From Bhargavaea sp. CC-171006 (GTDB lineage: Bacteria; Bacillota; Bacilli; Bacillales_A; Planococcaceae), in NCBI RefSeq assembly GCF_009761675.1, contig NZ_QUZH01000012.1, positions 1 through 64,000 on the forward strand: a DNA stretch of 64,000 nt. Reading direction: 5' to 3'. Position 1 is the first letter of the stretch, and every line of letters starts with the position of its first letter. The position numbers and the translations under genes were made by a program. The notes under the pieces are model-generated. The model did not search any database. It saw only the letters and a list, made by a program, of their open reading frames with translations, and had not been told where the DNA came from. Below, piece by piece: positions 13,393 through 60,655 of the stretch.

Positions 13393-13539
13393 TTCGTCAC
13401 TTTCGTGGGTCATTTCATCACTTTCGTGGGTCGATTCATCACTTTCATGGATCGTTTCATCACTTTCGTGGGTCGTTTCATCACTTTCATGGGCCGATTC
13501 ATCACTTTCGAAGCATGATTCGTCACTTTCGCGCCGGAC
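13393..13539. repeat. 21-bp periodic array, seven copies (class TCACTTTC)
   Basis: The motif TTCATCACTTTCGTGGGTCG recurs with starts at 13393, 13414, 13435, 13456, 13477, 13498 and 13519, an exact 21-base period. The first 12 bases vary little and the last nine vary more. It lies between the stop of the DUF3784 gene and the shared terminator of convergent genes. Seven-codon repeat peptides in open frames here are a by-product of the period. Confidence 0.9.
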
Positions 13540-13562
13540 CCGGCCATTTTGAATAGAACAAC

Positions 13563-13605
13563 AAAAACGGATGCACCGGCAAAACTGCCGGGCATCCGTT
13601 TTTTC
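13563..13605. terminator. Terminator between convergent genes
   Basis: ACGGATGC and GGC pair with GCC and GCATCCGT, followed by a T run on the + strand and preceded by an A run. Confidence 0.8.
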
Positions 13606-13609
13606 AGAT

Positions 13610-14521
13610 TCAGCTGAACAGCGAGCGGACCGAGTCGATCAGGTTATTGAAGAAGTCTTTGACTTTCTGCCAGAAGCCTTCATCGTTCACTGTCTCACGG
13701 ATTTTGTCGCCGTATTTATCATTGAAGTCCTGAGCAAACTGTCCGAGCTGATCCGACCATTTGCTAAAGTCGATATCAAGCTGGCGGATGCGGTCCATCA
13801 GGTCCACCAGAAGCTGGCGGTCTTCGGGGCTCAGTTCGATTTGGAGCTTGTCGAGCTGCTCGGTAACAATCCGCTCCACGTCTTCCTTCGTCGCCGGGTT
13901 CTGTTCGGCGATCTGCTGCTTCAGCTCGGTAAGAAGTTCCGTCACCTTTTGCTCGTCAACACCCGACTTTTCGGCGAGCTCTGTCGCAACGGTAAGTTCG
14001 TCGTTGGCAACGTCCGTCCGTTCGGTATCAAGCGTGCCGCCGCTGGCCTCATACGCTTTGTAGATGCCTGCCAGCGCGGAGTGGCCAGTGACCGGTTTCG
14101 GTGCCGCGACGTCGACATCGGCATCTTCGATTCCCGCTGTAAGCATTGCATTTGCATACATATCCGACGTAACCTGGGTGATGTTGTCCGGAGTGACAAT
14201 CTGGATGACGAGTCCGCTTCCCGGCTCTGTCACCGTGATTTTCGCGGACGAATACATCCGCGCCCGAGGATTCGCTCCTTGGATGTATTTGCCCAGATCC
14301 TGTCCGGAAACGGTGATTTCCTCGACTTCCGCTTCTTCCTTCACCTTCAGGCTGCTTTCCACGCTCGCTCTCTGGTCCGCGGTCAGGTCCGCGCCGTATA
14401 CGACAATCGGAACACCTAGACGTTCATCGACCGCAGGCTCGGCAGAAACGGCAGGTCCCGTCAACATGGAAAGTACCAGTGCCAATATTGCGGGCAATAC
14501 CCATCTTCTCTTTTTGTTCAT
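13610..14521 (-). CDS. DUF1002 secreted protein
   Basis: A 303-residue exported protein with a Sec signal peptide (basic start, hydrophobic core, ending near SAEP at 28). The DUF1002 core starts at the VVYGADLT motif and includes IQIVTPDNITQVTSDMYANA; the remaining half is acidic and predicted coiled-coil or helical, with a final Trp-containing amphipathic helix. Function unknown; homologues are common in Firmicutes. AAAGGGG precedes the ATG. Confidence 0.75.
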   Translation of the reverse strand: MNKKRRWVLPAILALVLSMLTGPAVSAEPAVDERLGVPIVVYGADLTADQRASVESSLKVKEEAEVEEITVSGQDLGKYIQGANPRARMYSSAKITVTEPGSGLVIQIVTPDNITQVTSDMYANAMLTAGIEDADVDVAAPKPVTGHSALAGIYKAYEASGGTLDTERTDVANDELTVATELAEKSGVDEQKVTELLTELKQQIAEQNPATKEDVERIVTEQLDKLQIELSPEDRQLLVDLMDRIRQLDIDFSKWSDQLGQFAQDFNDKYGDKIRETVNDEGFWQKVKDFFNNLIDSVRSLFS

Positions 14522-14550
14522 GAGGTTTTCCCCTTTCCTGGATGCAAAAG

Positions 14551-14582
14551 CAACTCCTCACCCATATGAACGGGCGAGGAGG
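14551..14582 (-). terminator. Hairpin after cvfB
   Basis: CTCCTC and CCC pair with GGG and GAGGAG. The minus-strand T run is weak (TTGCTTTT). Confidence 0.5.
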
Positions 14583-14592
14583 GTAAAAAGTT

Positions 14593-15468
14593 TCATGAAT
14601 CCCGCTGGGCATCCTTTAAATATGTCCAGCCGTCTTCCTGAACGATTTTACGTTCTTTCAGCAGCTTGCCGATCGCCCGCTTGAAAGAAGCTTTGCTCAT
14701 ATCGAACATTTCACTGATTTCGTCGGGCGCTGACTTGTCCGTGAAAGGCATTTTGCCGCCGGCTCCGTTCAGATACCGGATTACCGTCTCTGCATCATCG
14801 CCGATCCGTTCCTCTTTCCGTGGAAGAAGGGAGCCGTTAAGAGAGCCATCATCGCGGATGCCGATCACCCGGACTTCGACTTCCTGCCCGAGCCTCGGCT
14901 CAAATTTCATTTCGGTATGGTGGACGAAGATCCGGTATTTCTGCGGCTCGCTCAGCATGAATGCCCCGACCGGAAGCAGCCGGTACGCCCGGGCTTTGAG
15001 GTTTTTATTGAAAAGAGCTGCCGGTGCGTCGACATACTCATCCTTGATGCGCTCCTCGGTGACGAGCCTTCCGAACAGATTGCCGCCCTTATCCATGCGA
15101 AGCGTCATGTACAGGCAATCACCCGGCTCCGGCCAGAGCTCTTTGAGCTGCGGCATGTCCTTCGGATTGACGATGACTTCGACGGACGATCCGATGTCTG
15201 TCCGGATGCCGTCCCGCCCGTCCGTGTCAATCACTTCCGCCCAGCCGTATGACCCCACTTCCATACGGGGCAGCCGGCTCGTCGCGACGAGGTTGCCGCG
15301 CCGGTCCGGGTGGAGAAATACTTTCAGCCTGTCGCCTTCATTCAATTCCTCCGGCGCTTCTGAAGCGTTCATATTAAATTCCTGTCCGTCGCAGGACAGC
15401 ACCCAGCGGGAGCCTTCCCGCCGTTCCGCGAGCGCCTCGATGATTCGCCCGGATTCGGCCTTTGCCAT
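14593..15468 (-). CDS. cvfB: CvfB/YitL-type S1 RNA-binding regulator
   Basis: A 291-residue cytoplasmic protein with tandem S1/OB domains and a C-terminal winged helix. In Staphylococcus aureus CvfB affects virulence gene expression and binds RNA; YitL is the Bacillus counterpart. Features include VEVIVNPKDMPQL and PRLGQEVEVRVIGIRDDGSLNGS, and a winged-helix end (FDMSKASFKRAIGKLLKE). It starts two bases after the mntR stop codon on the same strand, so the two genes are probably co-transcribed. Confidence 0.88.
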   Translation of the reverse strand: MAKAESGRIIEALAERREGSRWVLSCDGQEFNMNASEAPEELNEGDRLKVFLHPDRRGNLVATSRLPRMEVGSYGWAEVIDTDGRDGIRTDIGSSVEVIVNPKDMPQLKELWPEPGDCLYMTLRMDKGGNLFGRLVTEERIKDEYVDAPAALFNKNLKARAYRLLPVGAFMLSEPQKYRIFVHHTEMKFEPRLGQEVEVRVIGIRDDGSLNGSLLPRKEERIGDDAETVIRYLNGAGGKMPFTDKSAPDEISEMFDMSKASFKRAIGKLLKERKIVQEDGWTYLKDAQRDS

Positions 15469-15470
15469 AT

Positions 15471-15908
15471 TTATCTCTCCCTTTCTTCGTCCGCACGATC
15501 CGCCGCCCGATAGCGCTCCAGTTGGTCCAGCATAGCAGGATTTCTTTCGAGGACGTGTACAAGTTCGGTGATGCGGTCAATTGCATCCCAGCTCAGATGA
15601 TGCTCAATCCCCTCGACATCGTTGTAGACATGCGTTTCATCCACGCCAATCAGGCGGAGAAAGCGTTCAAGCAGCTCATGACGGCCGGCCAGCTTCCGGC
15701 CGAACGCTTCACCCTTTGAAGTTAATATTAACCCTTTATAGCGTTCGTAAACTAAATAGCCTTCCCGGTCCAGCTTCCTCGCCATCTTCGTGACCGATGA
15801 CGGCAGGACTTCCAGCGCTTCCGCGATGTCGGAAACACGTGCCTCCCCCGTTGCTGCCGATTTCAGCCAGATCTGTTCCAGATAGTCTTCCATGCTCGGC
15901 GTCGCCAT
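15471..15908 (-). CDS. mntR: Manganese-responsive repressor MntR
   Basis: A 145-residue DtxR-family regulator controlling manganese uptake. The start [12 protein letters not shown] carries Asp8 and Glu11, two of the known metal ligands, and the later ligands lie in GIEHHLSW. The winged helix is at residues 25-65. Frame openness would allow an extra 89 residues, but GGAAGGGGCGGA lies just upstream of 15908 and the family starts there. It lies directly ahead of cvfB. Its target transporters are not in this window. Confidence 0.92.
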
Positions 15909-16038
15909 ACCAGATCCGCCCCTTCCATTGCCTGTCCGTCCATTATAGCACGGAGCAAAGGATGCCCGGACCGGTTTATCCGGGAACAAGCAGGGGTAGG
16001 ATTTGGTTAACAGAGAAAGACGGAAAGCGGGTGACTTC

Positions 16039-16194
16039 ATGGGCAAAATCGTTTGGTGGATCATTTTGATTCTGATCGCATTCTGGCTGATCGGCTTCCT
16101 TCTTGATATTTTCGGCGGTCTGATCCACATCGTCCTTATCATCGCCGGTATCATTTTCATCTTCCAGCTGATCACCGGCAGGAATAAACATTAA
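16039..16194 (+). CDS. Lmo0937-family small membrane protein
   Basis: A 51-residue protein made of two membrane helices joined by a short turn (GGLIHI), with a short charged end. It matches the Lmo0937/DUF5670 small membrane protein type; function unknown. The ATG at 16039 is chosen over an earlier in-frame start because it precedes the first helix and has GCGGGTGA upstream. Confidence 0.7.
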
Positions 16195-16233
16195 AAATAG
16201 GGATGCCGCTGATTTGGCGGCATCCCTATTTTA
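16195..16233 (+). terminator. Terminator of the small membrane protein gene
   Basis: AATAGGGATGCCGC pairs with GCGGCATCCCTATT, with T-rich sequence after it. Confidence 0.8.
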
Positions 16234-16258
16234 TTTGGCCTCGTGCTGCATGATGACA

Positions 16259-16300
16259 TGCTTCACATTTGGTCGCGCTTGCTTGATATTCGGAAAATCC
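16259..16300. repeat. Possible two-copy remnant of the 21-bp array class
   Basis: TGCTTCACATTTGG at 16259 is nearly identical to the core of the array at 38.3 kb. A degenerate TGCTTGATATTCGG starts exactly 21 bases later. The position, between the 3' ends of convergent genes, fits the other arrays. Two copies are weak evidence. Confidence 0.35.
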
Positions 16301-16320
16301 CGGTCCCGCCGGCGCAGCAT

Positions 16321-17430
16321 TCAGTTCACTTTTGCATAAACACAGGTGTCGCGGAGGCTGCCGTCCGAGGCGACATCATCATTCTTAAGGATGCCTTCGA
16401 GTTCATAACCCAACTTTTCCGGGATGGCACGGCTCTTCATGTTCTTCGTATCACAACGGATTTCGACCCGCCTGGCCCCGAGGGTTTCCACGGCAAACTG
16501 GGTGATCCGCTCCGCAGCTTCCGTGATGTAGCCATGGCCTGTGTAGCGGGTATCGATCCAGTACCCGATTTCGAATTTAGGTATCTCCCAATTGATGCGA
16601 TGCAATCCGGATGAACCGATAAACGCACCGTCTTCCAGCCGGTAAATATGCAGACGAAGATCTTTACGGGTGATAAAATCGGCCACCGCTTTCCTGAGGC
16701 TGTCTTCCACGCCTTCAAGCGTCGGCTTGTCCTTGGCGAACGGGAGCCATTCCTTCAGCTCCGGATGGGAATAGGTGAGCGCGTCATAAACATCGGCTGC
16801 ATCCTCCACGCGCGGGGCGCGGATCAGGAGCCGCTCCGAGCGGAACTCATCCGTAAAGCCCGGCGGACGTCCCTGGTGGTCGGTTGCCGCAGCAATTTCA
16901 CGGTCGTTCCACTCCACGGGGGTCGTCTTGCCACTTTCAAAGTCCTCCCGCGTGATTCCGTACGTGACGGCATCATAGTAAGAGTCCTCTTTCGGGGAGT
17001 ACCATGACCTGCGCAGATGGCCTTCTTTCACGAAGCCTGCCCGCTCAAAGGTTTTCCGCATTGCGGCATTGTCCTGCCGGGTGTGGCCTTCCAGCCGGAT
17101 TTTCTTGTCCGGCATGCTGAACACATAATCGCAGACCAGCCGGAGCGCCCGCGGGCCGAACCCCCTGCCGCGCGCCCTTTCCGCTATCCGCAGATCAAAC
17201 ACCGGAATCTCATCCTGCATGTCATACAGCTTGACGATGCCGACCTTCTCCCTGTCCTCGGTCTCCACCCAGAACGTCTTCACCTCGTCGGATTCGTAAC
17301 CGCCGTCATCGATCGCTTTCTCGATCATTTCCCGAGCGGGATGCGGTATGCCATGATACGGCCAGCTGTTCTCCGTCATGAAGTGGATGAGTTCTTCCTG
17401 TTCCTGCATCGTCCATTCCGTCAGTTTCAT
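16321..17430 (-). CDS. Double-domain GNAT acetyltransferase
   Basis: A 369-residue protein with two acetyltransferase domains. The N-terminal one (about 1-170) has ERARGRGFGPRALRL and a RimL-like end; the C-terminal one (about 185-365) is RimJ/RimL-type with DTRYTGHGYITEAAERI and CDTKNMKSRAIPEKLGYE. Each half looks complete, so both could bind acetyl-CoA. The start at 17430 has GGGGGG upstream; the ATG eight codons earlier has none. Substrate unknown; ribosomal protein or antibiotic acetylation would be guesses. Confidence 0.82.
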   Translation of the reverse strand: MKLTEWTMQEQEELIHFMTENSWPYHGIPHPAREMIEKAIDDGGYESDEVKTFWVETEDREKVGIVKLYDMQDEIPVFDLRIAERARGRGFGPRALRLVCDYVFSMPDKKIRLEGHTRQDNAAMRKTFERAGFVKEGHLRRSWYSPKEDSYYDAVTYGITREDFESGKTTPVEWNDREIAAATDHQGRPPGFTDEFRSERLLIRAPRVEDAADVYDALTYSHPELKEWLPFAKDKPTLEGVEDSLRKAVADFITRKDLRLHIYRLEDGAFIGSSGLHRINWEIPKFEIGYWIDTRYTGHGYITEAAERITQFAVETLGARRVEIRCDTKNMKSRAIPEKLGYELEGILKNDDVASDGSLRDTCVYAKVN

Positions 17431-17454
17431 CCGTGTCCCCCCCTGCCGCATCAT

Positions 17455-17839
17455 CGTGTCCAGGGCGCAAAAGCTGCAACCCGGAGCGTCGGCCGCTCCG
17501 TAAACCTAAAGAGCGGCGCGGCCAAATTCATGCTATGGCAAACAACAATCGTTTCTTTAATTATACACAACGTTTTCCGGCTTAGCCGCTATACATTTCC
17601 GGCAAGCGTGAACAAACGTCCCGTCTTGTCCCGGCCACCCCATTTTATGCTCGCCTGAACAAGGAATCAAGGCCATCAAAATGAGGCCCGGCTGTTTTTC
17701 TTTTGGTTCAAAAGGTTTTCAAACGGCAGGAAGGGAATATAGTATTACATAGAGAACGTTTCCCCGCGTCCGGCTGGCCGGGCGCCGGCGGGCGGTTCGC
17801 ATCCGCCCTTTCCGGAAACCGAAGGAGGATACCGGACGA
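17455..17839. other. Intergenic region between divergent genes
   Basis: About 385 bases without a convincing gene. It contains the probable leader and promoter of the universal stress protein gene and a GC-rich stretch (17765-17815) with short dyads. Short open frames here lack ribosome sites. Confidence 0.5.
17715..17739 (+). promoter_or_regulatory. Possible sigma-B promoter of the UspA gene
   Basis: GTTTTC (17715-17720) and GGAATA (17734-17739) are 13 bases apart, close to the B. subtilis sigma-B consensus GTTTAA/GGGTAT. Universal stress genes are frequent sigma-B targets. About 100 bases of leader precede the start codon. Confidence 0.4.
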
Positions 17840-18256
17840 ATGTACGAAAAAATCATTATCGCCGTGGACGGCTCCGCCCATTCCAGGCGGGCGGCCAAGC
17901 ACGGCGCCATAATCGCAAAATCAACCGGCGCATCCGTCGACCTGCTCTATGTCGTCGACCACGACCGCTCCCGTCCGCAGGAGTATGAAAATGTCACAAA
18001 GGAAGAACTGGAAACACGTGTCCGTGACCAGCTGTCCGAGGTTTTCGCCATTTTCAGCGACAAGGGAATCCGGCCCGGACTGCAGATCCAGTTCGGGGAA
18101 CCCGGACCTGCAATCGTCAAATTCATCAATTCGGTCGGCTACGACCTGGCCATTGTCGGCAGCCGCGGATTAAATGCTTTCCAGGAGATGGTGCTCGGCA
18201 GCGTCAGCCATAAAGTCGCCAAGCGCGCCGAATGCCCTGTCCTTCTTGTGAAGTGA
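17840..18256 (+). CDS. Universal stress protein, UspA family
   Basis: A 138-residue cytoplasmic UspA-fold protein. It begins YEKIIIAVDGSAHSRRA and ends with the nucleotide-binding pattern GSRGLNAFQEMVLGSVSHKVAKRAECPVLLVK, the G-2x-G-9x-GS motif of ATP-binding members. GAAGGAGG precedes the ATG with 11 bases of spacing. Monocistronic, with its own terminator. Confidence 0.92.
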   Translation: MYEKIIIAVDGSAHSRRAAKHGAIIAKSTGASVDLLYVVDHDRSRPQEYENVTKEELETRVRDQLSEVFAIFSDKGIRPGLQIQFGEPGPAIVKFINSVGYDLAIVGSRGLNAFQEMVLGSVSHKVAKRAECPVLLVK

Positions 18257-18283
18257 ACCGTCCTCAAATAGGGACGGTTTTTT
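18256..18283 (+). terminator. Terminator of the UspA gene
   Basis: AACCGTCC pairs with GGACGGTT followed by a T run; the stem begins at the stop codon. Confidence 0.85.
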
Positions 18284-18352
18284 CGTGTGCCCATTTGTGA
18301 TTGAACTTTGAGATAATGGAAGACAGAGCAGATACATAAGGGGGAATAAGCA

Positions 18353-19369
18353 GTGAACAAAGGGAAATGGAATGCCATCACGGACGTGGAAGGGGTGTCG
18401 GTTGGACATGTCACGCTTGACCGGCCCGGGGACGGAGACGATTATTTCTGCACGGGAGTGACGGCCATTCTCCCGCACAGTGGCAATTGGTTCAAAGAAA
18501 AACCGGCTGCTGCCTCGTTCGTCCTGAACGGTTTCGGCAAGACGGCAGGGCTCGTCCAGGTCGAGGAACTCGGCGTATTGGAATCGCCGATCATGCTGAC
18601 AAATACGTTCAGTGTCGGCGCGGTGCTTGAAGGCACACTTCAATACATGCTGGACGAGAACCCGGCGATCGGGGATTCGACCAGTTCACTCAATATTGTT
18701 GTCGGCGAGTGCAACGACAGCTATCTGAACTCGATGCGGAAAATGGCCGTGCGTCCGGAAGACGCAGTCCGGGCCATCCATGAGGCTTCGGGAGAAGAAC
18801 TTGAGCAAGGCGCGGTAGGTGCCGGCAAGGGCATGATCTGCTACGGCGCGAAAGGCGGCATCGGCAGCTCTTCCCGCGTCGTGGAGGCAGGCAGCCGGAC
18901 ATTCACCGTCGGCACCCTCGTACTCACCAATTTCGGCCGCGGCCATGAATGCCGCTTCCCGGGCTGGGTGGCGCCGGAAGAGCCGACTCCCGAAACACCG
19001 GTTGCCGAAGAGGAAAAGCGTCCGGACGGCTCGGTCATCATCGTCGTCGCGACCGATGCCCCTCTTGGAGCCCGCCAGCTAAAGCGGATCGCCAGACGGG
19101 CCGCGATCGGACTCGGCCGGACCGGCACCCACATCCACAACGGGAGCGGCGACATCATCATCGCCTTCTCGAACGGGCTGCTGACCTCGCACGGCGGTGA
19201 GGAAATGACTGTCACCCGGGAAATCATCAAGGATGACCACCCTATCATGAACGACCTGTTCGAAGCGGCAATCGCCTCGACCGAGGAAGCTGTCCTTCAG
19301 TCACTCCTCCACGCAGAGACGACAACCGGCAGGAAAGGAAGGGTTGTCAGGAAAGCGGAATTCCGGTGA
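18353..19369 (+). CDS. P1-family (DmpA/BapA-type) aminopeptidase
   Basis: A 338-residue member of peptidase family S58, self-processing Ntn-type hydrolases that remove N-terminal D- or beta-amino residues. Visible features are ITDVEGVSVGHVTL at the start, GSAGKGMICYGAKGGIGSSSR around the autocatalytic cleavage point (read as GAGKGM...GIGSSS), and the C-terminal domain with HNGSGDIIIAFS. The start codon is GTG, with GGGGGA upstream. It is monocistronic with a terminator. Confidence 0.85.
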   Translation: MNKGKWNAITDVEGVSVGHVTLDRPGDGDDYFCTGVTAILPHSGNWFKEKPAAASFVLNGFGKTAGLVQVEELGVLESPIMLTNTFSVGAVLEGTLQYMLDENPAIGDSTSSLNIVVGECNDSYLNSMRKMAVRPEDAVRAIHEASGEELEQGAVGAGKGMICYGAKGGIGSSSRVVEAGSRTFTVGTLVLTNFGRGHECRFPGWVAPEEPTPETPVAEEEKRPDGSVIIVVATDAPLGARQLKRIARRAAIGLGRTGTHIHNGSGDIIIAFSNGLLTSHGGEEMTVTREIIKDDHPIMNDLFEAAIASTEEAVLQSLLHAETTTGRKGRVVRKAEFR

Positions 19370-19381
19370 TGCTGCTTAAGT

Positions 19382-19420
19382 AAAAAGAGAACTTCCGGGT
19401 CATCGGAAGTTCTCTTTTTT
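19382..19420 (+). terminator. Terminator of the P1 peptidase gene
   Basis: AAAGAGAACTTCCG pairs with CGGAAGTTCTCTTT with a T run; may also serve the convergent lipoprotein gene. Confidence 0.9.
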
Positions 19421-19425
19421 CCGCC

Positions 19426-19797
19426 TCAAAAACCGGTCACGTTATCAAACGGCTTCTGCTTCCCGTTCACCCTGACTTCGATCGTGTCTTGTTTGGCGTC
19501 TGTCTTCAGTTCATAGACGTGGGTATCCACAACGTCCTTTGTTTCACCGGATTCTTCCAGCCTGATGATGACCGTTTTGTCCTCGATTTCGTAATCTGCG
19601 GCTACTGCCTGCTCGGATTGAAAAACGATGTAAGACTTGGTTTTCGAATTAAGCAACTGAAGGGTCAGGTCGGGATCAACCTGTTCCCAGACATCGCCAG
19701 GCATCTGATTGAGTTCACTGAAACTCGTGACTTCCGGGTCGCTGCAGGCTGACAGGAGACCCGCGGCAATTAACGCGCCAACTATAAACCTTCTCAC
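19426..19797 (-). CDS. Lipoprotein, hypothetical
   Basis: A 123-residue lipoprotein: GTG start, basic N-terminus, hydrophobic core and lipobox LLSAC (Cys 18). The mature part is beta-rich and acidic with no domain I recognise. GAGGGG lies upstream. Its promoter region borders the large 20-bp array. Confidence 0.7.
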   Translation of the reverse strand: MRRFIVGALIAAGLLSACSDPEVTSFSELNQMPGDVWEQVDPDLTLQLLNSKTKSYIVFQSEQAVAADYEIEDKTVIIRLEESGETKDVVDTHVYELKTDAKQDTIEVRVNGKQKPFDNVTGF

Positions 19798-19829
19798 TTT
19801 CTTCCCCTCTCTCCGGATGATCCGCCCGC

Positions 19830-20240
19830 TTATTTCAAGTCAAACTGCTATATTTCATTTCGGCAGCCCTTATTGCAACTCCTGGCTTCTTGATTCAATT
19901 CGTGGATCCTTATTGCAACTCCCAGTTCCTTATTTCAAGTCGGGGCACCATGCGGCAAATTCGAACTCCTTGTGGCAACCAGCGGCCAATGCGGCATATC
20001 CGGGCCCCATGTGGCAAATCGGCAGCCCATGTGGCAAATCAGTGAGCCAAATCGCAAATCCGCACTCCTTATGGCAAATCGGCGACCTATGCGGCAAATC
20101 CGGACCCCATGCGGCAAATCGGCAGCCCATGCGGCAAATCCAGGCCCCATGCGGCAAATCGGCAGCCCGTGCGGCAATTCAGTGAGCCAAATCGCAAATC
20201 CGCACTCCTTGTGGCAACTCACGCGCCTTATTGCAATTCC
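19830..20240. repeat. 20-bp periodic array, 21 copies
   Basis: A core of (T/G)(T/G)NCAA(A/C/G)TC recurs 21 times. The central C of CAA falls at 19836, then every 20 bases to 19976, then 19995 and every 20 bases to 20215, and finally 20234; only two steps are 19. The outer copies read TTATTGCAACTC or TTATTTCAAGTC and the inner ones GCGGCAAATC. A block of about 50 bases (20031-20080) is repeated 140 bases later (20171-20220). It fills the gap between the penicillin acylase stop and the lipoprotein gene start. Confidence 0.92.
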
Positions 20241-20245
20241 ACACT

Positions 20246-22606: not shown

Positions 22607-22682
22607 TTCATCATCCCCCCTGCCCCAATTGATTCTCCCCTTTTCCGGAAAATCCTTCCTGGGGGGCAGCTACCCTATAAGA

Positions 22683-38327: not shown

Positions 38328-38408
38328 TTGCTTCACATTTGCATGGGGTTGCTTCACTTTCATGGTGGCTTACTTCACATTCACACGAATTTGCTTCAGC
38401 ATTCAGCC
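38328..38408. repeat. 21-bp periodic array, four copies (class TCACTTTC)
   Basis: TTGCTTCACATTTGCATGGG recurs with starts at 38328, 38349, 38370 and 38391, exactly 21 bases apart. The second copy shares TCACTTTCATGG with copies in the 13.4 kb array. It sits between the hmp terminator and the convergent hydrolase gene. Confidence 0.8.
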
Positions 38409-42511: not shown

Positions 42512-42630
42512 AGCGCGCATAGGTTTCTATGCGCGCTTGCAGCAGTCCTATGCGCGCTCCACCGGGTCCTATGCGCGCTCATCCCTTTTCTATGCGCGCT
42601 TCAAAAGGTTCTATGCGCGCTCCCGCTTTT
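42512..42630. repeat. 21-bp periodic array with an inverted leading copy (class CTATGCGCGCT)
   Basis: CTATGCGCGCT starts at 42527, 42548, 42569, 42590 and 42611, exactly 21 bases apart, with variable ten-base gaps. An inverted copy at 42512-42522 pairs with the first direct copy, AGCGCGCATAG against CTATGCGCGCT, to make a perfect 11-bp hairpin with a four-base loop. It lies between the ars promoter and the end of the PfpI gene. Confidence 0.9.
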
Positions 42631-46260: not shown

Positions 46261-46430
46261 GTGAGTCCGGAATCGACGCTCTAAGTCCGATTCCAAGATC
46301 CTAAGTCCGAAGCTGAATTTCTAAGTCCGATTTCGGTGCCCTAAGTCCGAATCTGGATACCTAAGTCCGATTTCAGTGCTCTAAGTCCGAATCTGGATAC
46401 CTAAGTCCGATTCCGGTGCCGTAAGTCCGA
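46261..46430. repeat. 20-bp periodic array, nine copies (class CTAAGTCCGA)
   Basis: CTAAGTCCGA begins at 46281, 46301, 46321, 46341, 46361, 46381 and 46401, with variants at 46261 (GTGAGTCCGG) and 46421 (GTAAGTCCGA). The period is exactly 20. The ten bases between cores alternate between two types (TTTCGGTGCC-like and ATCTGGATAC) in the middle, a 40-base higher-order unit. It lies between convergent genes, 25 bases after a terminator. Confidence 0.92.
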
Positions 46431-46466
46431 TTTTCCGCCTATGCGATCCTGATTCCACAAAGCCGC

Positions 46467-49211: not shown

Positions 49212-49218
49212 GGAAGCT

Positions 49219-50904: not shown

Positions 50905-50931
50905 CTGCTTCCGCCTCCTTCCCGTACCCAT

Positions 50932-51591: not shown

Positions 51592-51664
51592 CCATCACTT
51601 CTTTCCTGCTGTCCCTTATCTATACCACATGCCATGACCCCTTAACAATCAGGGGTTCCGCTGA

Positions 51665-52306: not shown

Positions 52307-52430
52307 TTTATCACCGGAGGCAGGGGACATACCCGAAGAAAAGGAGTCGGCAGCCCAAAAACATATTCCAACTATTCCGTTTCGGCCGACATAATTCCTG
52401 CCGATTCTACAATTTTTTCACGACAAATAA

Positions 52431-52457
52431 AAGCACCCTGCTTTACGCAGGGTGCTT
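52431..52457 (-). terminator. Terminator of the yclNOPQ operon
   Basis: AAGCACCCTGC pairs with GCAGGGTGCTT just beyond the yclQ stop codon. Confidence 0.82.
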
Positions 52458-52469
52458 GGGAGGGACCGA

Positions 52470-53420: not shown

Positions 53421-53455
53421 CAGAATCCCTCTTCTTTCGTAATTAAAGAATGTGT

Positions 53456-54217: not shown

Positions 54218-55164
54218 GCGGATCGACTCTCCTTAAGTAGTAGATAGATGAAATACACGCCGCCGGCGAATTCGATGACGACACTCAAAGTGGTAGAGAA
54301 GGTGAAGATACGCTCGACGACCCACTGTCCCCCGATAAGGAGGACCATGCTCAGGCCGGCTGCAGCTGTAATCGTGAAGGAATGCTTATAAGACTTGATG
54401 AACTGGTAGCTCAAGTTGGCGACGATCAGCCCGAAGAATGTGATCGGGCCGACAAGCGCCGTGGATACGGCGATCAGGACCGCCGACAGGATCAGGGTGC
54501 CGCGCACCATCCTGTCATACGGTACGCCCAGATTCATGGAGATATCCCGGCCAAGCGAGATCACGTCCATGATCCTGAGCTGGCGCCATCCTATGATGAT
54601 GCAGACCGCGACAACCGCTATGGAAAGCCAGACCAGATCTGCATTGACATTATTGAAACTGGCAAACATCGCATCCTGGACGGTCAGGAACTCGTTCGGG
54701 TCGATCAGAACCTGGAGGAATGTCGAGATGCTTCCGAAAAAGGTTCCGACGATGATTCCGACCAGGAGCAGGAAGTAGACCGGCCGGTTCCCCTTCTTGA
54801 AGAGGAGCTGGTAGAGCAGCAGTGCGAAAATGATCATCGCTGCCACCGACAGCAGGAAGTTGACCTGCTTGTTGACGACCGTTATATGAGTCGAGCCCAG
54901 GAAAAAGATGATGAGCGTCTGGAGCAACATATAGAGAGAATCCAGCCCCATGATGCTCGGCGTCAGGATGCGGTTCTGGGTGATCGTCTGGAAGACGACC
55001 GTTGCATAGGCGATCGCGATGCCGGTCACGGCCATCGCCGCAACCTTCACGCCCCTTCTCGGGAGGGCGTAGTCATAGCTGCCGTTCAGATCATGGAACA
55101 GGTACAGCCCGACAAAAAGCGCCGCCAGCGCATACAGGATGATGAGTTTTGTGGAATCACGCAT
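54214..55164 (-). CDS. yclO: Siderophore ABC transporter permease YclO
   Basis: A 316-residue FecCD-type permease with about nine membrane segments. The conserved region GRDISMNLGVPYDRM and VGPITFFGLIVANL couple to the ATPase. The yclN stop overlaps its start by eight bases. Confidence 0.92.
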   Translation of the reverse strand: MRDSTKLIILYALAALFVGLYLFHDLNGSYDYALPRRGVKVAAMAVTGIAIAYATVVFQTITQNRILTPSIMGLDSLYMLLQTLIIFFLGSTHITVVNKQVNFLLSVAAMIIFALLLYQLLFKKGNRPVYFLLLVGIIVGTFFGSISTFLQVLIDPNEFLTVQDAMFASFNNVNADLVWLSIAVVAVCIIIGWRQLRIMDVISLGRDISMNLGVPYDRMVRGTLILSAVLIAVSTALVGPITFFGLIVANLSYQFIKSYKHSFTITAAAGLSMVLLIGGQWVVERIFTFSTTLSVVIEFAGGVYFIYLLLKESRSA

Positions 55165-56107
55165 AGGCTTTCCTCCTGAACAGCAAGTAAAGGAAGATGC
55201 CGCTGCCGATGACTCCGACCATCAGACTGATGGAAATTTCATATGGATAAATCAGCACACGTCCGAGAATGTCACAGACGAGAAGGAAAATCGCGCCCAT
55301 GAGAGCCGTGTGCGGCAAAGTCTTCTCAAGGTTGTCCCCTTTCATGATGGAGACGATGTTGGGGATGATGAGTCCGAGGAACGGAATCATGCCGACCGTG
55401 AGGACGACCGTTACGGTGATCAAGGCCACCAGGATCAGTCCGAAGTTCAATACAAACCTGTAGTTGAGCCCGAGGTTCCTGGAGAAATCTTCCCCCATGC
55501 CGGCAACCGTAAAGCGGTTTGCGTACAGGTAGGCCAGGATCAGGATCGGGACGCTGATATAAAGAAGTTCATAGCGTCCGGACATGATCATGGAGAAATC
55601 CCCCTGCAGCCAAGAGGACATGTTCTGGATCACATTCGACCGATAGGCGAAGAATGTCGTCAGTGAAGACAGGATGTTCCCGAACATCAGCCCGACCAGC
55701 GGAATGAAGATCGCATCTTTGAACTTGATGCGCTCCAGGATCTGCATGAACAAGAGTGTTCCGGCCAGGGCGAATGCAAACGCGATGGCCATCTGCTCGA
55801 GCATTGTCGCATTCGTGAACAGAAGCATGGATACAAGGATCCCGAGACGGGTCGCATCCAGTGTCCCTGCCGTTGTGGGCGAAACAAACTTGTTCCGGCT
55901 CAACTGCTGCATGATCAGACCGGCTACGCTCATGCCCGCGCCGGCCAACAGGATGGCGACGAGGCGAGGCACACGGCTGATCAGGAATATTTGAGTTTCT
56001 TCGGAACTCCAATCCAGGAGGTCCATTGGTGAGATGCTGCTCGTCCCGACGAACAAGGATAAGAACGACAGGATGACGAGTCCGGCAATCATGTAACGTG
56101 TCTTCAT
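55157..56107 (-). CDS. yclN: Siderophore ABC transporter permease YclN
   Basis: A 316-residue FecCD-type permease, first gene of the yclNOPQ operon. It contains SRVPRLVAILLAGAGMSVAGLIMQ and GMIPFLGLIIPNIVSIMKG. Together with YclO it forms the membrane channel for the petrobactin-type siderophore. Expression is expected to be iron-repressed by the Fur boxes upstream. Confidence 0.92.
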   Translation of the reverse strand: MKTRYMIAGLVILSFLSLFVGTSSISPMDLLDWSSEETQIFLISRVPRLVAILLAGAGMSVAGLIMQQLSRNKFVSPTTAGTLDATRLGILVSMLLFTNATMLEQMAIAFAFALAGTLLFMQILERIKFKDAIFIPLVGLMFGNILSSLTTFFAYRSNVIQNMSSWLQGDFSMIMSGRYELLYISVPILILAYLYANRFTVAGMGEDFSRNLGLNYRFVLNFGLILVALITVTVVLTVGMIPFLGLIIPNIVSIMKGDNLEKTLPHTALMGAIFLLVCDILGRVLIYPYEISISLMVGVIGSGIFLYLLFRRKAYA

Positions 56108-56156
56108 GGCTATCCCCGATGCACTGCAATTTGAAAGGCTATTGAGAATGTTCTGT

Positions 56157-56171
56157 TGAAAATCATTCTCA
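56157..56171 (-). promoter_or_regulatory. Fur box between promoter and yclN start
   Basis: TGAAAATCATTCTCA matches the 15-base Fur consensus TGATAATCATTATCA at 13 positions. Confidence 0.65.
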
Positions 56172-56188
56172 GCAACCTTGCAATTGTT

Positions 56189-56216
56189 ATTATAGCACGC
56201 GTTATCGGGAAGTCAA
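56189..56216 (-). promoter_or_regulatory. Sigma-A promoter of yclNOPQ
   Basis: On the minus strand TTGACT (56211-56216) and TATAAT (56189-56194) are separated by 16 bases, flanked by Fur boxes on both sides. Confidence 0.75.
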
Positions 56217-56224
56217 AGGTTAAA

Positions 56225-56239
56225 TGAAAATGATTATCA
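56225..56239 (-). promoter_or_regulatory. Fur box upstream of the yclN promoter
   Basis: TGAAAATGATTATCA matches the Fur consensus at nearly every position and lies nine bases beyond the -35 element. Confidence 0.75.
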
Positions 56240-56354
56240 TTTAGTTTAGAATGATTATTGATAAGGTTTTGCCCATCACGGAAGTGAGTTTTCGGATAAC
56301 ATTGAATTTCGCTAATTCGGGAGTTTTTTCAGTGCTTGAGGCTTTCCGGGACAA

Positions 56355-56386
56355 AGAAAAACCGCAGCGGCGGCTGCGGTTTTTCT
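56355..56386 (-). terminator. Terminator of the DUF6612 gene
   Basis: AAAAACCGCAGC pairs with GCTGCGGTTTTT beyond the stop codon on the minus strand. Confidence 0.82.
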
Positions 56387-56393
56387 TGTTTGA

Positions 56394-57263
56394 TTATTGT
56401 TGCGGAAGTTCAACTGCGGAGTCGATGACTTCCTGAGGGATTTCGATCTTCTCGATGCCGTTGATATTCGAGTAGGCAGTATTCGAGTCGATGTCGATAT
56501 TGAGCGTCTCTCCCTGCTCTTCAATCGTCATGGCCATGACCATGTTCATGGCCGTCATGTTGAATGTTTCCTTATCCACGAACATCTCGTACTGAAGGTC
56601 ATTGATTTCCATGTTCTCAAGTGCCTTCTGTTCTTCTTCACCCATCTGCTCGAGCATTTCGGGCGGGAGTTGTTCATGGAGCGTCTGCTTGATCAGCTCG
56701 TTGAACTTCTCCCCGTCTGCCGTGAGTTTCAGGATGTATTCGTTCTCGTTCTGCTCAAACTTCATGTCTTTTGCATACTCCTGAAGCTGCTCGAGCTGCT
56801 CGGACGGATCCGGCTGCTGCTGGGTCAGCTGGTCGAGCCCGGGGACCGCCCCGGTCATTTTGATCCACTGCTCACCCTGCGGATCGCGCATATACATGGT
56901 CCCGTCTTCAGTCATATAGACATCAAGGTCCATTGACATCTCCTCACCGCCGGCGGCGCTCATGGACATCGTGCCCTTCTGATGCATCGCAAGCGGATCC
57001 AGCGTCATTTCCATATCCATGTCAGTAACCGTGTTCATCTCTACTTCCTGCGAAGGGATCGAGATCTTCTGGTCCATTTCCACTTTGGCTTCGGCGCTCT
57101 TCATCTCCTGGGAAGCAGTCAGTGCTTTCTCATAAACTTCTTCCGCCGTCAGGTCGCTCTGCTTTTCTTTAGGTGTGCCTTCCGTGGGTTCGGCCGTTTC
57201 ATTGCATGCCGCGAGACCGAGTGTCAGGGTTCCGGCTACCATGGCCATCAAGAGTTTCTTCAT
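56394..57263 (-). CDS. DUF6612-type lipoprotein
   Basis: A 289-residue lipoprotein with lipobox LGLAAC (Cys 20). The mature part (AEEVYEKALTASQEMKSAEAKVEMDQ and MYMRDPQGEQWIKM) fits DUF6612, a LolA/LppX-like lipoprotein group of Firmicutes. It is unusually Met-rich and acidic. Function unknown. Divergent from the ABC exporter. Confidence 0.78.
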   Translation of the reverse strand: MKKLLMAMVAGTLTLGLAACNETAEPTEGTPKEKQSDLTAEEVYEKALTASQEMKSAEAKVEMDQKISIPSQEVEMNTVTDMDMEMTLDPLAMHQKGTMSMSAAGGEEMSMDLDVYMTEDGTMYMRDPQGEQWIKMTGAVPGLDQLTQQQPDPSEQLEQLQEYAKDMKFEQNENEYILKLTADGEKFNELIKQTLHEQLPPEMLEQMGEEEQKALENMEINDLQYEMFVDKETFNMTAMNMVMAMTIEEQGETLNIDIDSNTAYSNINGIEKIEIPQEVIDSAVELPQQ

Positions 57264-57427
57264 ATTGAATTACCGCCTCTCTCATTTGGGTACAGTCCGT
57301 AATACGGCAACATTCATGGAAAAGTTCCGTTTTCTTGAAGAAACACAACGAAAGACCCACTCCTCTTCCGCATCCTTTTTGATTCGGCTATAATGACGGA
57401 AGTCAAAATCATACATCGGAGGAACCC

Positions 57428-59146
57428 ATGCTCAAGCAATTCTTTTCCTATTATAAACCGCATAAGCGGCTGTTCATGATTGACTTCTCAAGCGCCGTAT
57501 TCGTCGCGCTGCTTGAGCTCGCTTTTCCCGTTGCCGTGCAGTGGTTCATCGATGAGCTGCTTCCGACAGGCGACTGGGGACGGATTGTCTGGGTCAGCCT
57601 TCTGCTGCTCGGGGTCTATCTTCTCAGCACGTTCCTGCAGTTCATCGTCTCCTACCTGGGCCACAAGCTCGGAGTGAACATCGAAACGGACATGCGCCAG
57701 CAGCTGTTCAATCATGTGCAGCGGCAGTCGTTCCGCTTTTTCGACAACACGAAGACCGGGCATATCATGAGCCGCATCACCAATGACCTGTTCGATATCG
57801 GCGAACTTGCCCATCACGGGCCGGAGGATATTTTCATCGCCATCATGACGATCATCGGTGCCTTCTCGATCATGTATACGATCAACCCTGAGCTCGCTCT
57901 GATCACAATCGTCATGATCCCGTTCCTTGTATTGGTCATCACGTTCTGCAATACGAAGATGAACAAGGCGTGGCGCAACATGTACAGCCGGATTGCAGAT
58001 GTGAATGCCCGTGTCGAGGATAGCGTGTCCGGGGTCCGCGTGGTGCAATCGTTCACGAATGAGGCGTTCGAGATGAAGCGGTTCCGGAAAGACAACGGAA
58101 GCTTCAGGCTGGCCAAAATCGCGGCGTACAAAGTCATGGCCTGGACGCACTCCAGCATGTACATGATGACCCGGCTCGTCACGCTGCTTGTACTCGTCGT
58201 CGGGGCCTGGTTCTCCTTTAACGACCGGCTTTCTTACGGTGAACTTGTCAGTTTCGTGCTGTTTGTCAACGTCCTCATCAAACCGGTCGATAAGATTGCG
58301 GCACTCCTTGAGATGTATCCGAAAGGCATGGCCGGATTCAGGCGGTTCCAGGAATTGCTGGACGAGGAGCCGGAAGTTCTTGACCGTCCGGATGCCGTTG
58401 AGGTCTCCCAACTAAACGGCAATATCCGATTTGACCGGGTATCATTCCGCTATGACGGCTCCAAGTCCGTGCTGAATGACATCAGTTTGACCATCCGCTC
58501 CGGGCAGACAGTCGCGTTTGTCGGACCATCCGGTGCCGGCAAGACGACCATCTGCTCCCTGATTCCGCGTTTCTATGATGTCGACGGCGGCTCGATCTCC
58601 ATCGACGGCATCGATGTCCGTGACATGACCATGCAGTCGCTGCGCTCACAGATCGGCATCGTGCAACAGGACGTATTTCTTTTCACCGGGACCATTTTCG
58701 AAAACATCGCCTACGGCAAGCTCGGCGCGACCGAAGAGGAAATCTACCGGGCCGCGCGCAAGGCCCATCTCGAAGAGTTCATCACCGATCTTCCTGACGG
58801 CTACGAAACGCAGATCGGTGAACGCGGACTGAAGCTTTCAGGCGGCCAGAAGCAGCGCCTCGCCATCGCAAGGATGTTCCTGAAGAACCCGCCGATCCTT
58901 ATCCTGGATGAGGCCACTTCGGCACTCGACACCGAAACGGAGCGCATCATCCAGAAATCCCTCGAAGAGCTGTCCGAAAACCGGACGACCCTTGTAATTG
59001 CCCACCGGCTTGCCACTATCCGCAATGCCGACCGTGTCGTCGTCGTGACGAAGGACGGTATCGCGGAAGACGGTGGCTATGAGGAGCTCGTCAGGAAAGG
59101 CGGCATCTTCGCCAACCTGCATAACATTCAGTTCCAGGAGGCATGA
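57428..59146 (+). CDS. ABC exporter, fused permease-ATPase
   Basis: A 572-residue half-transporter with six membrane segments (about 15-300) and an ATPase domain: Walker A GPSGAGKTT near 367, signature LSGGQKQRLAIAR near 470 and Walker B ILILDEATSAL near 492. It resembles Sav1866/MsbA/YgaD-type multidrug or lipid exporters; it should act as a homodimer because no partner gene is adjacent. The substrate is unknown. GGAGG precedes the ATG. Confidence 0.9.
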   Translation: MLKQFFSYYKPHKRLFMIDFSSAVFVALLELAFPVAVQWFIDELLPTGDWGRIVWVSLLLLGVYLLSTFLQFIVSYLGHKLGVNIETDMRQQLFNHVQRQSFRFFDNTKTGHIMSRITNDLFDIGELAHHGPEDIFIAIMTIIGAFSIMYTINPELALITIVMIPFLVLVITFCNTKMNKAWRNMYSRIADVNARVEDSVSGVRVVQSFTNEAFEMKRFRKDNGSFRLAKIAAYKVMAWTHSSMYMMTRLVTLLVLVVGAWFSFNDRLSYGELVSFVLFVNVLIKPVDKIAALLEMYPKGMAGFRRFQELLDEEPEVLDRPDAVEVSQLNGNIRFDRVSFRYDGSKSVLNDISLTIRSGQTVAFVGPSGAGKTTICSLIPRFYDVDGGSISIDGIDVRDMTMQSLRSQIGIVQQDVFLFTGTIFENIAYGKLGATEEEIYRAARKAHLEEFITDLPDGYETQIGERGLKLSGGQKQRLAIARMFLKNPPILILDEATSALDTETERIIQKSLEELSENRTTLVIAHRLATIRNADRVVVVTKDGIAEDGGYEELVRKGGIFANLHNIQFQEA

Positions 59147-59148
59147 GT

Positions 59149-59182
59149 CAATCCCCTGTCCGGAGGAGGACAGGGGATTTTC
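59149..59182 (+). terminator. Terminator of the ABC exporter gene
   Basis: AATCCCCTGTCC pairs with GGACAGGGGATT, followed by TTC-rich sequence. Confidence 0.85.
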
Positions 59183-59255
59183 GTTTCCTTGTATGGCCGA
59201 ATTCAGATTAGAATGGTATACTATTTCGGTTATCAGTTTATAGGAGGTCCTGAAG

Positions 59256-60317
59256 TTGAACACCACCCATACGTCCGAAAGAAAACGGACGATTATATAT
59301 GTAGCCGTCTTCCTGCTTGTCGCCATCATTGGCCTTGCTTACGTGAAGTGGATTCCATATGTCGATAAAAGCATCACAGCCATCACAACCCAGTCGATCG
59401 GCGATTCGATCCTCGGTGATCCGGCAGATGCCGGAACATTCTCTTGGGAAAGCACATGGTCGTATGTCGTCACGTACTTCCTTGCCGTCTGGAAAGCAGC
59501 CGTCCTGGGTATTGTGCTGGGCTCGTTGGTCCAAGTGCTGATCCCTGCTGACTGGCTGATGCGCACGCTCGGCAAAACCTCATTCGGCAGCACGGCCATC
59601 GGCGGCCTCACGAGCCTTCCGGGCATGATGTGCACCTGCTGTGCGGCACCCGTCGCGGCCGGTCTCCGGAAAAAGAACGTATCGATCGGGGCGGCTCTCG
59701 CCTTCTGGCTCGGAAATCCCGTGCTGAACCCGGCGGTCCTCATATTCATGACGTTCGTCCTTTCCTGGGAATTCACGCTTCTCCGTGCCGTCTTCGGCAT
59801 CGTGCTCGTCTTCGGTATCAGCTACCTGGCGAACCGGTTTGCCCCACAGCCGGCTCCGGAAGAACTCGCCCGCAAAGTGGAAGAAGCTGAAACTGCGATT
59901 GCCCCCGAAGAAGGAAGCTTCCTTAGCCGCTGGCTGAAGAGCATGGGCCGGATGGCACTCTTCATTATCCCGGCCTACTTTATCTCGGTCCTGCTCATCG
60001 CGGCGGTACGCCCTTGGCTCTTCCCGCTGCTTGACGGAGCATCCGGCAATACGCTGCTGATGATCCTGCTCTTTGCGATCGGCGGCATGCTGTTTGTCAT
60101 CCCGACCGCTGCGGAAATCCCGATCATCCAGACATTCATGTCCGCCGGTCTCGGCACCGGCCCTGCCGCTGCCATGCTCATCACCCTGCCGGCCATCAGT
60201 CTCCCGTCACTGATCCTCGTCGCAGGCGCGTTCCCGAGGAAAGTCCTCTGGTTCGTCGCCGGAGCGGTCATCCTGCTCGGCGTCCTCTGCGGCCTTGTCG
60301 GCATGTGGGTGATGTAA
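59256..60317 (+). CDS. Permease with CTCCAAP motif (DUF318/ArsP-like)
   Basis: A 353-residue permease with about nine membrane segments. The metal-related motif CTCCAAPVAAGLRKK and the second half repeat (VIPTAAEIPIIQTFMSAGLG) match the DUF318 (YcgR/ArsP/SO_0444) permease family, some of which export metals or organoarsenicals. The start codon is TTG at 59256, with TAGGAGGT upstream. The substrate cannot be named. Confidence 0.82.
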   Translation: MNTTHTSERKRTIIYVAVFLLVAIIGLAYVKWIPYVDKSITAITTQSIGDSILGDPADAGTFSWESTWSYVVTYFLAVWKAAVLGIVLGSLVQVLIPADWLMRTLGKTSFGSTAIGGLTSLPGMMCTCCAAPVAAGLRKKNVSIGAALAFWLGNPVLNPAVLIFMTFVLSWEFTLLRAVFGIVLVFGISYLANRFAPQPAPEELARKVEEAETAIAPEEGSFLSRWLKSMGRMALFIIPAYFISVLLIAAVRPWLFPLLDGASGNTLLMILLFAIGGMLFVIPTAAEIPIIQTFMSAGLGTGPAAAMLITLPAISLPSLILVAGAFPRKVLWFVAGAVILLGVLCGLVGMWVM

Positions 60318-60329
60318 TAAGTGTTTGTG

Positions 60330-60363
60330 ATCCCCCGCTCCGGGTGACGGAGCGGGGGTTTTT
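60330..60363 (+). terminator. Terminator of the permease gene
   Basis: CCCCCGCTCC pairs with GGAGCGGGGG followed by TTTTT. Confidence 0.88.
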
Positions 60364-60388
60364 GATTGGGGGCTATTACTTCATTACT

Positions 60389-60655
60389 GTAAGTCCGATT
60401 TCTCTTCGGTAAGTCTGGTTCCCTAATTGTAAGTCCGATCTTACCGGTGCAAGTCCGAACTCGCTATTTTAAGTCCGATTTTACGCTATAAGTCCGATTC
60501 CTTATTTCAACTTTCCACTCCTTATTGCAACTTCTCATCCCTTATTTCAACTCCGCACCCCTTATTGCAACTCCACTCTCCTTATTGCAACTTCGCTCCC
60601 CCTTATTGCAACTTCGCCTCCCTTACTTCAACTTTCCACTTCTTTTTGCATCTCC
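60389..60655. repeat. 20-bp periodic array of two core types, 14 copies
   Basis: Six copies of (G/T)TAAGTCCGATT with AAG at 60391, 60411, 60431, 60451, 60471 and 60490 lead directly into eight copies of CTTATTGCAACT (or TTTCAACT) with the C of CAA at 60508, 60528, 60548, 60568, 60588, 60609, 60629 and 60649. Both share a (C/T)AA core and stay in one phase across the switch. The first core equals that of the 46.3 kb array, the second that of the 19.8 kb array. It fills a 408-base gap between convergent genes with no gene in it. Confidence 0.92.

Follow-up and report, generated by a model that had tools for sequence, protein, structure and literature searches.

Plasmid Rep initiators bind head to tail to iterons, direct repeats with a length of about two helical turns, and ParR/parC and similar centromeres consist of tandem phased direct repeats with a sequence of their own in each plasmid. 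REP/BIME elements with RAYT are repeats scattered through extragenic DNA, frequently at 3' ends, and are tied to a gene family. In PRDM9-type or restriction-specificity evolution, the DNA-recognition part changes fast, and the genomic targets differ with it.

The repeat arrays described here lie in a 64,000-nucleotide stretch of Bhargavaea sp. CC-171006 (contig NZ_QUZH01000012.1, positions 1 to 64,000), which is referred to as the window. They share the direct-repeat pitch of about two turns with iterons, the tandem phased direct repeats with ParR/parC, and the dispersal, the 3'-end location, and the tie to a gene family with REP/BIME and RAYT. Unlike iterons, they form many classes scattered around the chromosome, with genes for NERD-domain proteins (PF08378) rather than rep genes alongside; a Pfam scan of 10 of the 12 genes flanking the window arrays, which look unrelated, and of nine array-linked NERD proteins gave no Rep domain. 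Unlike ParR/parC, they occur in many copies per chromosome, and no partition gene was found among the scanned proteins. They differ from REP/BIME in being direct repeats with variable spacers instead of palindromes, although classes A and C hold inverted copies, and the scanned proteins contain no Y1 transposase domain. The likeness to PRDM9 or restriction specificity, where a fast-changing recognition part is paired with its targets, is an analogy only, which would here involve a bacterial NERD protein and tandem arrays. The layout also differs from that of CRISPR, since a core of 11–15 nt in a unit of 20–21 nt takes the place of near-identical repeats with longer unique spacers, and the window has no Rfam match. 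The PADLOC anti-phage defence models gave only weak local matches, which fall in the NERD portions of PglW and MkoA.

Six intergenic sites in the window carry arrays, all of which had been located by an initial annotation; each is present where it was placed, and four of the six do lie between convergent genes, as had been reported. On the forward strand, a class B array of seven copies with a period of 21 bp and the core TTC[A/G]TCACTTTC occupies 13393..13530, where two convergent genes face each other with their 3' ends; the NERD gene with class B arrays is found elsewhere in the genome (G000:C6:102247). A composite 20-bp array of about 17–20 copies, CTTATT[G/T]CAA[C/G]TC-type and CATG[C/T]GGCAAATC-type, lies at 19829..20228 (forward), in a tandem gap that follows the 3' end of a penicillin-amidase gene and precedes a small gene. 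The weakest site, at 38328..38403 (forward), has four copies of a TTGCTTCACWTTC-like core spaced by exactly 21 bp between convergent flavohaemoglobin-like and alpha-beta hydrolase genes, and is below the autocorrelation threshold used for the wider scan described below. At 42525..42621 (forward), between a DJ-1/PfpI gene with a terminator-like hairpin and an ArsR-type gene, there is a class C array of five copies with the core CTATGCGCGCT and a period of 21 bp. The array at this site had been recognized before; its low end also holds a single inverted class C copy, missing from the initial annotation, with the core AGCGCGCATAG on the reverse strand (42512..42522), which faces the array. G022, G003, G056, and G040 have this layout, with altered bases, in their orthologous gaps. 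A class K array with the core CTAAGTCCGATT, consisting of eight copies with a period of 20 bp, lies at 46282..46432 (forward) between convergent genes. At 60.4 kb, a class K array with the core TAAGTCCGAT and about six copies with a period of 20 bp (60390..60493, forward) is directly followed by about eight class J copies with the core CTTATT[G/T]CAACT and a period of 20 bp with one 21-bp step (60501..60653, forward). The 20-bp sites, which had been grouped into a single CAA/AAGTC class, comprise a CTTATTGCAACT-like motif and a CTAAGTCCGATT motif at the least, with CATGCGGCAAATC in addition at 19.8 kb.

The periodicity was evaluated by autocorrelation in 100-nt windows. In the 64-kb window, the self-identity reaches 0.74 at lag 20 and 0.86 at lag 21; no other lag from 10 to 44 exceeds 0.52 except 40 and 42, and 20 first-order Markov controls gave a maximum of 0.49 at lags 20 and 21, which bears out the reported 20- or 21-base period. 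In a wider, non-random sample of 778 kb (24% of the Bhargavaea genome G000), 11 periodic segments were found at lag 20 and 50 at lag 21, and such segments were nearly absent at lags that are multiples of neither 20 or 21 nor 3. The repeat pattern is larger than had been stated, with 13 core classes, some of them interrelated, instead of three. Among neighboring copies 19–23 bp apart, all 162 of 162 in the nine 21-bp classes are spaced by exactly 21 bp, and 66 of 70 in the four 20-bp classes by exactly 20 bp. Odd arrays alternate between 21 and 31 bp or 21 and 20 bp, so the constraint looks like helical phase. Neutral satellites arising by replication slippage would account for the whole-unit gains and losses and the higher-order tandem blocks that occur; however, such an origin can hardly be credited given that nearly only 20 and 21 appear across many unlike cores, that the core is kept and the spacer is variable within arrays, that 21/31 spacing alternates, and that the arrays are tied to one gene family.

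Of the array segments in the 778 kb, 20 lie in convergent, 30 in tandem, and 4 in divergent gaps, to be compared with 46, 214, and 102 available gaps of at least 100 nt, respectively, where it should be considered that arrays lengthen the gaps themselves and that a small number of arrays were split into two or more segments. The preference for convergent and tandem over divergent gaps would fit a housekeeping job, in which a NERD protein bound to the arrays insulates convergent genes or organizes the nucleoid, but a neutral insert would likewise avoid divergent gaps. RNA-level 3' UTR elements acting in processing, as a sponge, or in termination are a very improbable explanation. By eye, a stop codon and a terminator-like hairpin enclose several of the arrays, and the zinc ribbon of the linked proteins weakly matches ribosomal-protein ribbons among solved structures (E 0.012 to 1), with nothing else matched. 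Against this, the array orientation in tandem gaps has no clear bias (22 opposite, 15 same), the 60.4 kb array sits by eye between two terminator-like hairpins, the window lacks Rfam matches, and helical spacing has no evident RNA reason. In addition, the 12 class A elements inspected are half-reversed, consisting of forward copies, about 17 nt, and reverse copies, with up to four per side. The unit profiles of 11 classes are without a palindrome by eye. Several core positions are A/G or C/T, which had suggested RNA wobble pairing; this was rejected, as G/T, A/T, and C/G positions are also present.

The arrays are associated with genes for proteins consisting of an N-terminal NERD nuclease-like domain, a zinc ribbon, and a C-terminal helix-turn-helix-like part. 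In G000, an array adjoins all eight such NERD-ribbon-HTH genes, one of them frameshifted, and the eight classes are different. Across 18 genomes, an array lies within 800 nt of 79 of 90 full-length genes, within 150 nt of 74, and within 150 nt 3' of the stop codon of 70. Among 358 control genes of 200–450 aa in the G000 sample, the corresponding numbers are 74 (20.7%) within 800 nt and 32 (8.9%) within 150 nt on the 3' side, and none of seven genes of other NERD types has an adjoining array. With the same detection, arrays were found at 8 of 10 full-length loci in other families of Bacilli. Most of the 11 loci that failed the automatic test have irregular or degenerate copies in a non-blind inspection by eye. 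All nine array-linked proteins scanned match PF08378 above the curated cut-off (38–64 bits versus 22.1). In 23 sequences, D101, K116, and four Cys residues are invariant and E114 is at least 90% conserved; judging from the motif, D101, E114, and K116 would be the catalytic residues of a PD-(D/E)xK nuclease. Classes J and K make up most of the 20-bp copies in the window, and G000 has no NERD gene with exactly these cores; they are tied to the family only via the related 20-bp cores M and L.

The C-terminal part appears to read the core, since it is swapped between species in one ortholog group and the core changes too. Six Bhargavaea orthologs are 79–83% identical in every pair up to the ribbon; after the ribbon, the identity is 65–87% within two groups and 34–44% between them. 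The core beside these orthologs is GGAGTAA in three genomes and of the TTGCCA type in two, and the sixth is cut by a contig end. Over 73 of 89 loci, the core similarity correlates with the C-part identity (r 0.54; 2000 permutations gave at most 0.09) and equally with the N-part identity (r 0.56), so the assignment to the C-terminal domain depends on the one swap. Considering the sequences together, the arrays are very probably chromosomal docking sites for NERD-domain proteins, and every class would have one cognate paralog that reads it through its C-terminal part. As the copies are integral helical turns apart, successive protein molecules would lie on one face of the DNA and could touch, and such contacts between neighbors may result in cooperative binding to about four or more tandem sites. 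The phased protein binding proposed in the initial annotation is well supported, though indirectly, by the two-turn pitch, the 21/31 or 21/20 alternation, and the co-variation of the C-terminal part with the core.

The arrays are not confined to this strain. In a comparison of six classes in seven genomes, the median class abundance was 30 pair hits with the cognate gene (n = 20) and 0.5 without it (n = 22; Mann-Whitney p 3e-6; permutation within classes 5e-5). A cognate gene is therefore usually accompanied by many arrays of its class and its absence by few, although exceptions exist. Without a cognate gene found, class A gives 76 pair hits in G003, and class B gives 35 in G056 and 25 in G003; class F copies occur in G000, G056, and G040, while the only genome with an observed F-type gene is G151. 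G151 itself has an A gene, yet the A core present in one gap of G000, G003, G040, and G022 is missing from its corresponding gap. The suggestion that positions are conserved while cores change holds at some loci, such as the D-type gaps and the 60.4 kb gap, where some of the 20-bp cores are different ones in G056, G022, G003, and B. cecembensis T14.

A housekeeping job based on the same binding is rather unlikely. Many array positions are kept across species, and cores differ less than spacers between orthologous gaps (14.5% versus 24.0%). However, the remainder of the gap differs no more than the cores do (13.9%), classes are patchy among close species and largely follow the cognate gene, alleles of the gene at one address are down to 36–60% identical although both flanks align over at least 1 kb, and arrays are reduced in several genomes without the gene. 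Because the flanking genes look unrelated, the classes track the cognate gene, and the putative nuclease residues are kept, insulation or chromosome organization is not specifically favored. The fast turnover fits a nuclease of self-recognition or genetic conflict better. The most likely role, suggested tentatively, is the control of a nuclease through tethering to the arrays, within a system of self-recognition, defence, or genetic conflict in which the many chromosomal arrays may mark or buffer "self".

It is improbable that the NERD gene is a mobile or homing element with arrays as its ends and the dispersed arrays as non-autonomous derivatives. Of the 90 genes, 31 have an array within 400 nt at each side, and in classes G and H these flanking arrays are inverted; class A elements have their forward/reverse structure; and in five classes the arrays are clustered around the gene of their own class (10 of 27 within 60 kb, p 0.002; p 0.03 at 30 kb and 0.018 at 100 kb). 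Certain related genes from different species have little or no flank in common (L172, L186/L182, L193; L185-L180), which slightly raises the probability of this explanation. On the other hand, most gene groups compared occupy one address in several species, the nine array-linked proteins scanned lack a recombinase domain, and solo arrays keep their position and some spacers between species. In four aligned gaps inspected by eye for the features of transposon ends or MITEs, no target-site duplication was seen; the reduced gaps hold remnant copies, which suggests decay rather than sites that were never filled.

An origin from plasmids or phages was rejected. When plasmids were queried with two arrays, one gave two 22-nt matches and the other none, and three class patterns gave 4, 0, and 1 stretches in viral contigs. 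Four of these five are GC-rich and, as in coding DNA, their lags are multiples of 3; L107 has a GC content of 0.48 and one lag-21 segment of 0.66. Among the cyanobacterial matches, L039 and L040 have two copies only and L042 has no lag-20 segment, and a Companilactobacillus repeat is a different repeat.

No earlier description of the pairing of arrays and NERD genes was found in the open-access literature. Searchable open-access papers describe no arrays or DNA target for NERD proteins, and such arrays are not recognized in that literature, including the accessible parts of PMC6749651, PMC10910872, PMC12802215, PMC11407518, and PMC9040797; the accessible text of the last states that, to its authors' knowledge, the role of NERD in bacteria has never been studied.

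With a chance slightly short of even, Bacilli hold many parallel single-gene NERD-array systems for self-marking or genetic conflict, in which a nuclease has its C-terminal DNA-reading part exchanged or diverging while the chromosomal address mostly stays fixed, and the sets of phased arrays follow the specificity of this nuclease and tend to decay upon its loss. If so, bacteria would have their own version of recognition proteins that co-evolve with target arrays in the genome. The pairing would explain a genome-wide periodic repeat pattern and give a widespread, little-studied protein family of unknown function a concrete, testable DNA partner, where the likely target of each paralog may be predicted from the adjoining array. 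With many natural variants whose targets can be read, protein–DNA co-evolution would become directly testable.

A non-random sample of 778,404 bases, about a quarter of the 3.27-Mb draft genome from which the window (contig C8:1-64000) derives, was scanned in stretches, some of which were picked beside the window or around class J matches. A segment was counted at a lag of L bases (L from 8 to 63) when, over 60 nt, it was at least 58% identical to the DNA L bases further along. Lag 21 gave 50 segments and lag 20 gave 11, against 0 to 2 for every other lag, leaving aside multiples of 20 or 21 (or their neighbours) and of 3, the coding period. Relative to the 746 genes predicted in this sample with a home-made gene caller, 54 of the 61 segments lay in gaps between called genes (20 convergent, 30 tandem and 4 divergent); of the remaining seven, three lay past the final gene predicted in a stretch and four inside predicted genes, two of which are calls of 45 aa. 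Inspection of the window sequence bore out all six array sites of the initial annotation; the three core classes it had described become 13 in the sample. The genes flanking the window arrays, 10 of 12 of which were scanned, are seemingly unrelated, and one array core was matched exactly in named Bhargavaea records. The 60.4 kb array is flanked by two terminator-like hairpins recognised by eye (window 60330-60390 and 60675-60712), and it apparently lies outside the transcripts of both neighbours. Arrays may interrupt assemblies and hence be counted too low, because in draft genomes several of them start right at base 1 of a contig (L050:1-183, L064:1-94, L112:1-81 and L113:1-122).

The cores are 11–15 nt long, and the remainder of the unit is more variable. 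The spacing was exactly 21 bp in 162/162 neighbouring copies 19–23 bp apart in the nine 21-bp classes, and exactly 20 bp in 66/70 neighbouring copies in the four 20-bp classes. Copy number is low in the 21-bp classes, as in class D, where the arrays have 4, 4, 4, 4, 4 and 3 copies. Class A is mostly two-sided, its forward copies being separated from its reverse copies by a centre of some 17 nt; six of 12 two-sided elements inspected have four forward and four reverse copies, the rest have 3–4 and 2–4, and none exceeds four per side, while three one-sided elements have five copies each. Relative to tandem genes, 22 cores were in the opposite and 15 in the same orientation, so that a bias is not clear.

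When the 746 predicted proteins were all compared with one another, one family of three stood out in that every member adjoins arrays; it carries a NERD domain (PF08378). Nine NERD matches were found in the source genome, eight of which are proteins of 333–366 aa as called, in which the NERD domain is combined with a CxxC...CxxC ribbon and, at the C-terminus, a helix-turn-helix-like part (NERD-ribbon-HTH). All eight genes adjoin an array, each of a different class: those of classes A and B have arrays on both sides, those of G and H have inverted arrays on both sides, and those of C, D, E and M have an array on one side as detected. The class C gene is frameshifted (contig C26:71702-72642; loci L137 and L141), and its address in five other Bhargavaea genomes holds full-length frames. 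The ninth match is a helicase-like protein; the weak lag-21 segment nearby was read as a coding coil repeat, not as an array. Higher-order tandem amplification of the arrays, in blocks of about 103, 205 and 110 bp, is seen close to some NERD genes (L223:2854-4010, L229:2948-3640 and L180:1032-1646, respectively).

Across 21 genomes, 99 of 124 NERD matches were examined; L135 and L211 did not match the profile made for this analysis, and 90 of the other 97, from 18 genomes, reached the 190 bits required of full-length members. Of these 90 loci, 79 have an array within 800 nt and 74 within 150 nt; in 70 it lies at most 150 nt past the stop codon, and 31 have arrays on both sides within 400 nt. 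The control, ordinary genes of 200–450 aa in the source genome, gave 74/358 within 800 nt and 32/358 within 150 nt on the 3' side, although nominal binomial p-values overstate independence because the loci are related. Other NERD types had an array nearby in 0/7. The flanks of the 11 loci without a detected array were inspected by eye: L173, L178 and L192, which are alleles of a single locus, have copies that mostly alternate between 21 and 31 bp, in L221 the spacing alternates between 21 and 20, L152 is truncated at a contig end, and others have a few degenerate copies. In other Bacilli families, 8/10 loci above 200 bits have a lag-20 or lag-21 array, excluding the array-less L254, which is split by a stop; of the two undetected, L242 mostly alternates between 21 and 20, and no array was seen at L249. 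No array was seen at seven more distant NERD types (L255-L261). The genomes G236 and G278, of another Bacilli family, matched a more distant NERD subfamily 11 and 10 times, and no 20/21-bp array was detected at the two loci examined (L256 and L261). A Companilactobacillus contig carries a different repeat containing AAGTTGCAATAAGTCT (L044:5332-5456), and the 8 kb examined gave no match to the NERD profile.

Core similarity tracks the identity of the C-terminal part (r 0.54, against at most 0.09 in 2000 permutations) over 73 of 89 loci, 16 being left out because the core was not clear. Identity of the N-terminal part also correlates with the core (r 0.56); therefore, only the swap at the C19 gene tells the domains apart. 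Its orthologs in six Bhargavaea genomes are 79–83% identical in every pair up to the ribbon, whereas the last 80 residues form two groups, with 65–87% identity within and 34–44% between them. The neighbouring arrays have GGAGTAA cores in the three genomes that make up one group, and TTGCCA-type cores in two genomes of the other, whose third member is truncated at a contig end.

In seven Bhargavaea genomes, copy pairs at the right spacing were counted for each of six classes. The median was 30 pairs in the 20 cases in which the cognate NERD gene was found and 0.5 in the 22 cases in which it was not (p 3e-6 by Mann-Whitney test, 5e-5 by permutation within classes), absence here meaning no assigned match in draft genomes, with one G040 fragment left unassigned. 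Class A in G003 and class B in G003 and G056 are exceptions; copies of class F are still present in genomes in which no F gene was found. The A array at 77 kb is kept in G003 without the A gene, and none is there in G151 despite the A gene.

Orthologous gaps likewise indicate that arrays are often lost along with the gene. At about 6, 19 and 47 kb from the D gene, class D arrays hold at least four copies in the gene-bearing G000 (the source genome), G003, G056 and G151, the 6-kb array of G151, whose gap reaches the contig end, being seen by pattern search only. In G040, without the D gene, comparison of the 6- and 19-kb gaps shows the 6-kb array lost and four copies kept at 19 kb. In G022, likewise without the gene, the D gaps contain a trace or one to two units of a variant core (CTTAACACTC), and three pairs of this variant 21 bp apart occur in the stretches of this genome. 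A G104 gene grouping with the D genes (support 0.90) has the core GAATGTTAAGAAAG, which is close to CTTAACACTC, and therefore the D-type core may have changed while positions stayed fixed. The E gene is missing from its address in G056 and G151 (381 and 355 nt vs 1331–1615), where the E array at 159 kb is down to one recognisable unit or a trace. Orthologous gaps differ by 14.5% in the core, 24.0% in the spacer and 13.9% in the rest.

The address of most NERD groups is kept across species, even at a protein identity of 36–60%. The flanks of L172, L186/L182 and L193 are hardly or not common to related genes, and L185 and L180 are 92% identical, yet have little common flank. For five classes in the source genome, 10/27 same-class arrays lie within 60 kb of their own gene (permutation p 0.002; 0.03 at 30 kb and 0.018 at 100 kb).

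Phased binding by the NERD-ribbon-HTH protein is the reading that best accounts for the regular pitch, the steps of 31 and 20 bp in the odd arrays and the association with the gene, in keeping with the phased protein binding suggested initially; insulation is a possible role of the arrays. No description of the pairing of arrays with NERD genes was found in the open-access papers searched, and PMC9040797 presents the role of NERD in bacteria as unstudied. Besides the putative phased binding, the conserved residues of these proteins fit a nuclease site. Because of these nuclease-like residues, the parallel paralogs, the specificity swap, the hyperdivergent alleles and the frequent loss of arrays with the gene, the pairing looks like a self-recognition or conflict system.
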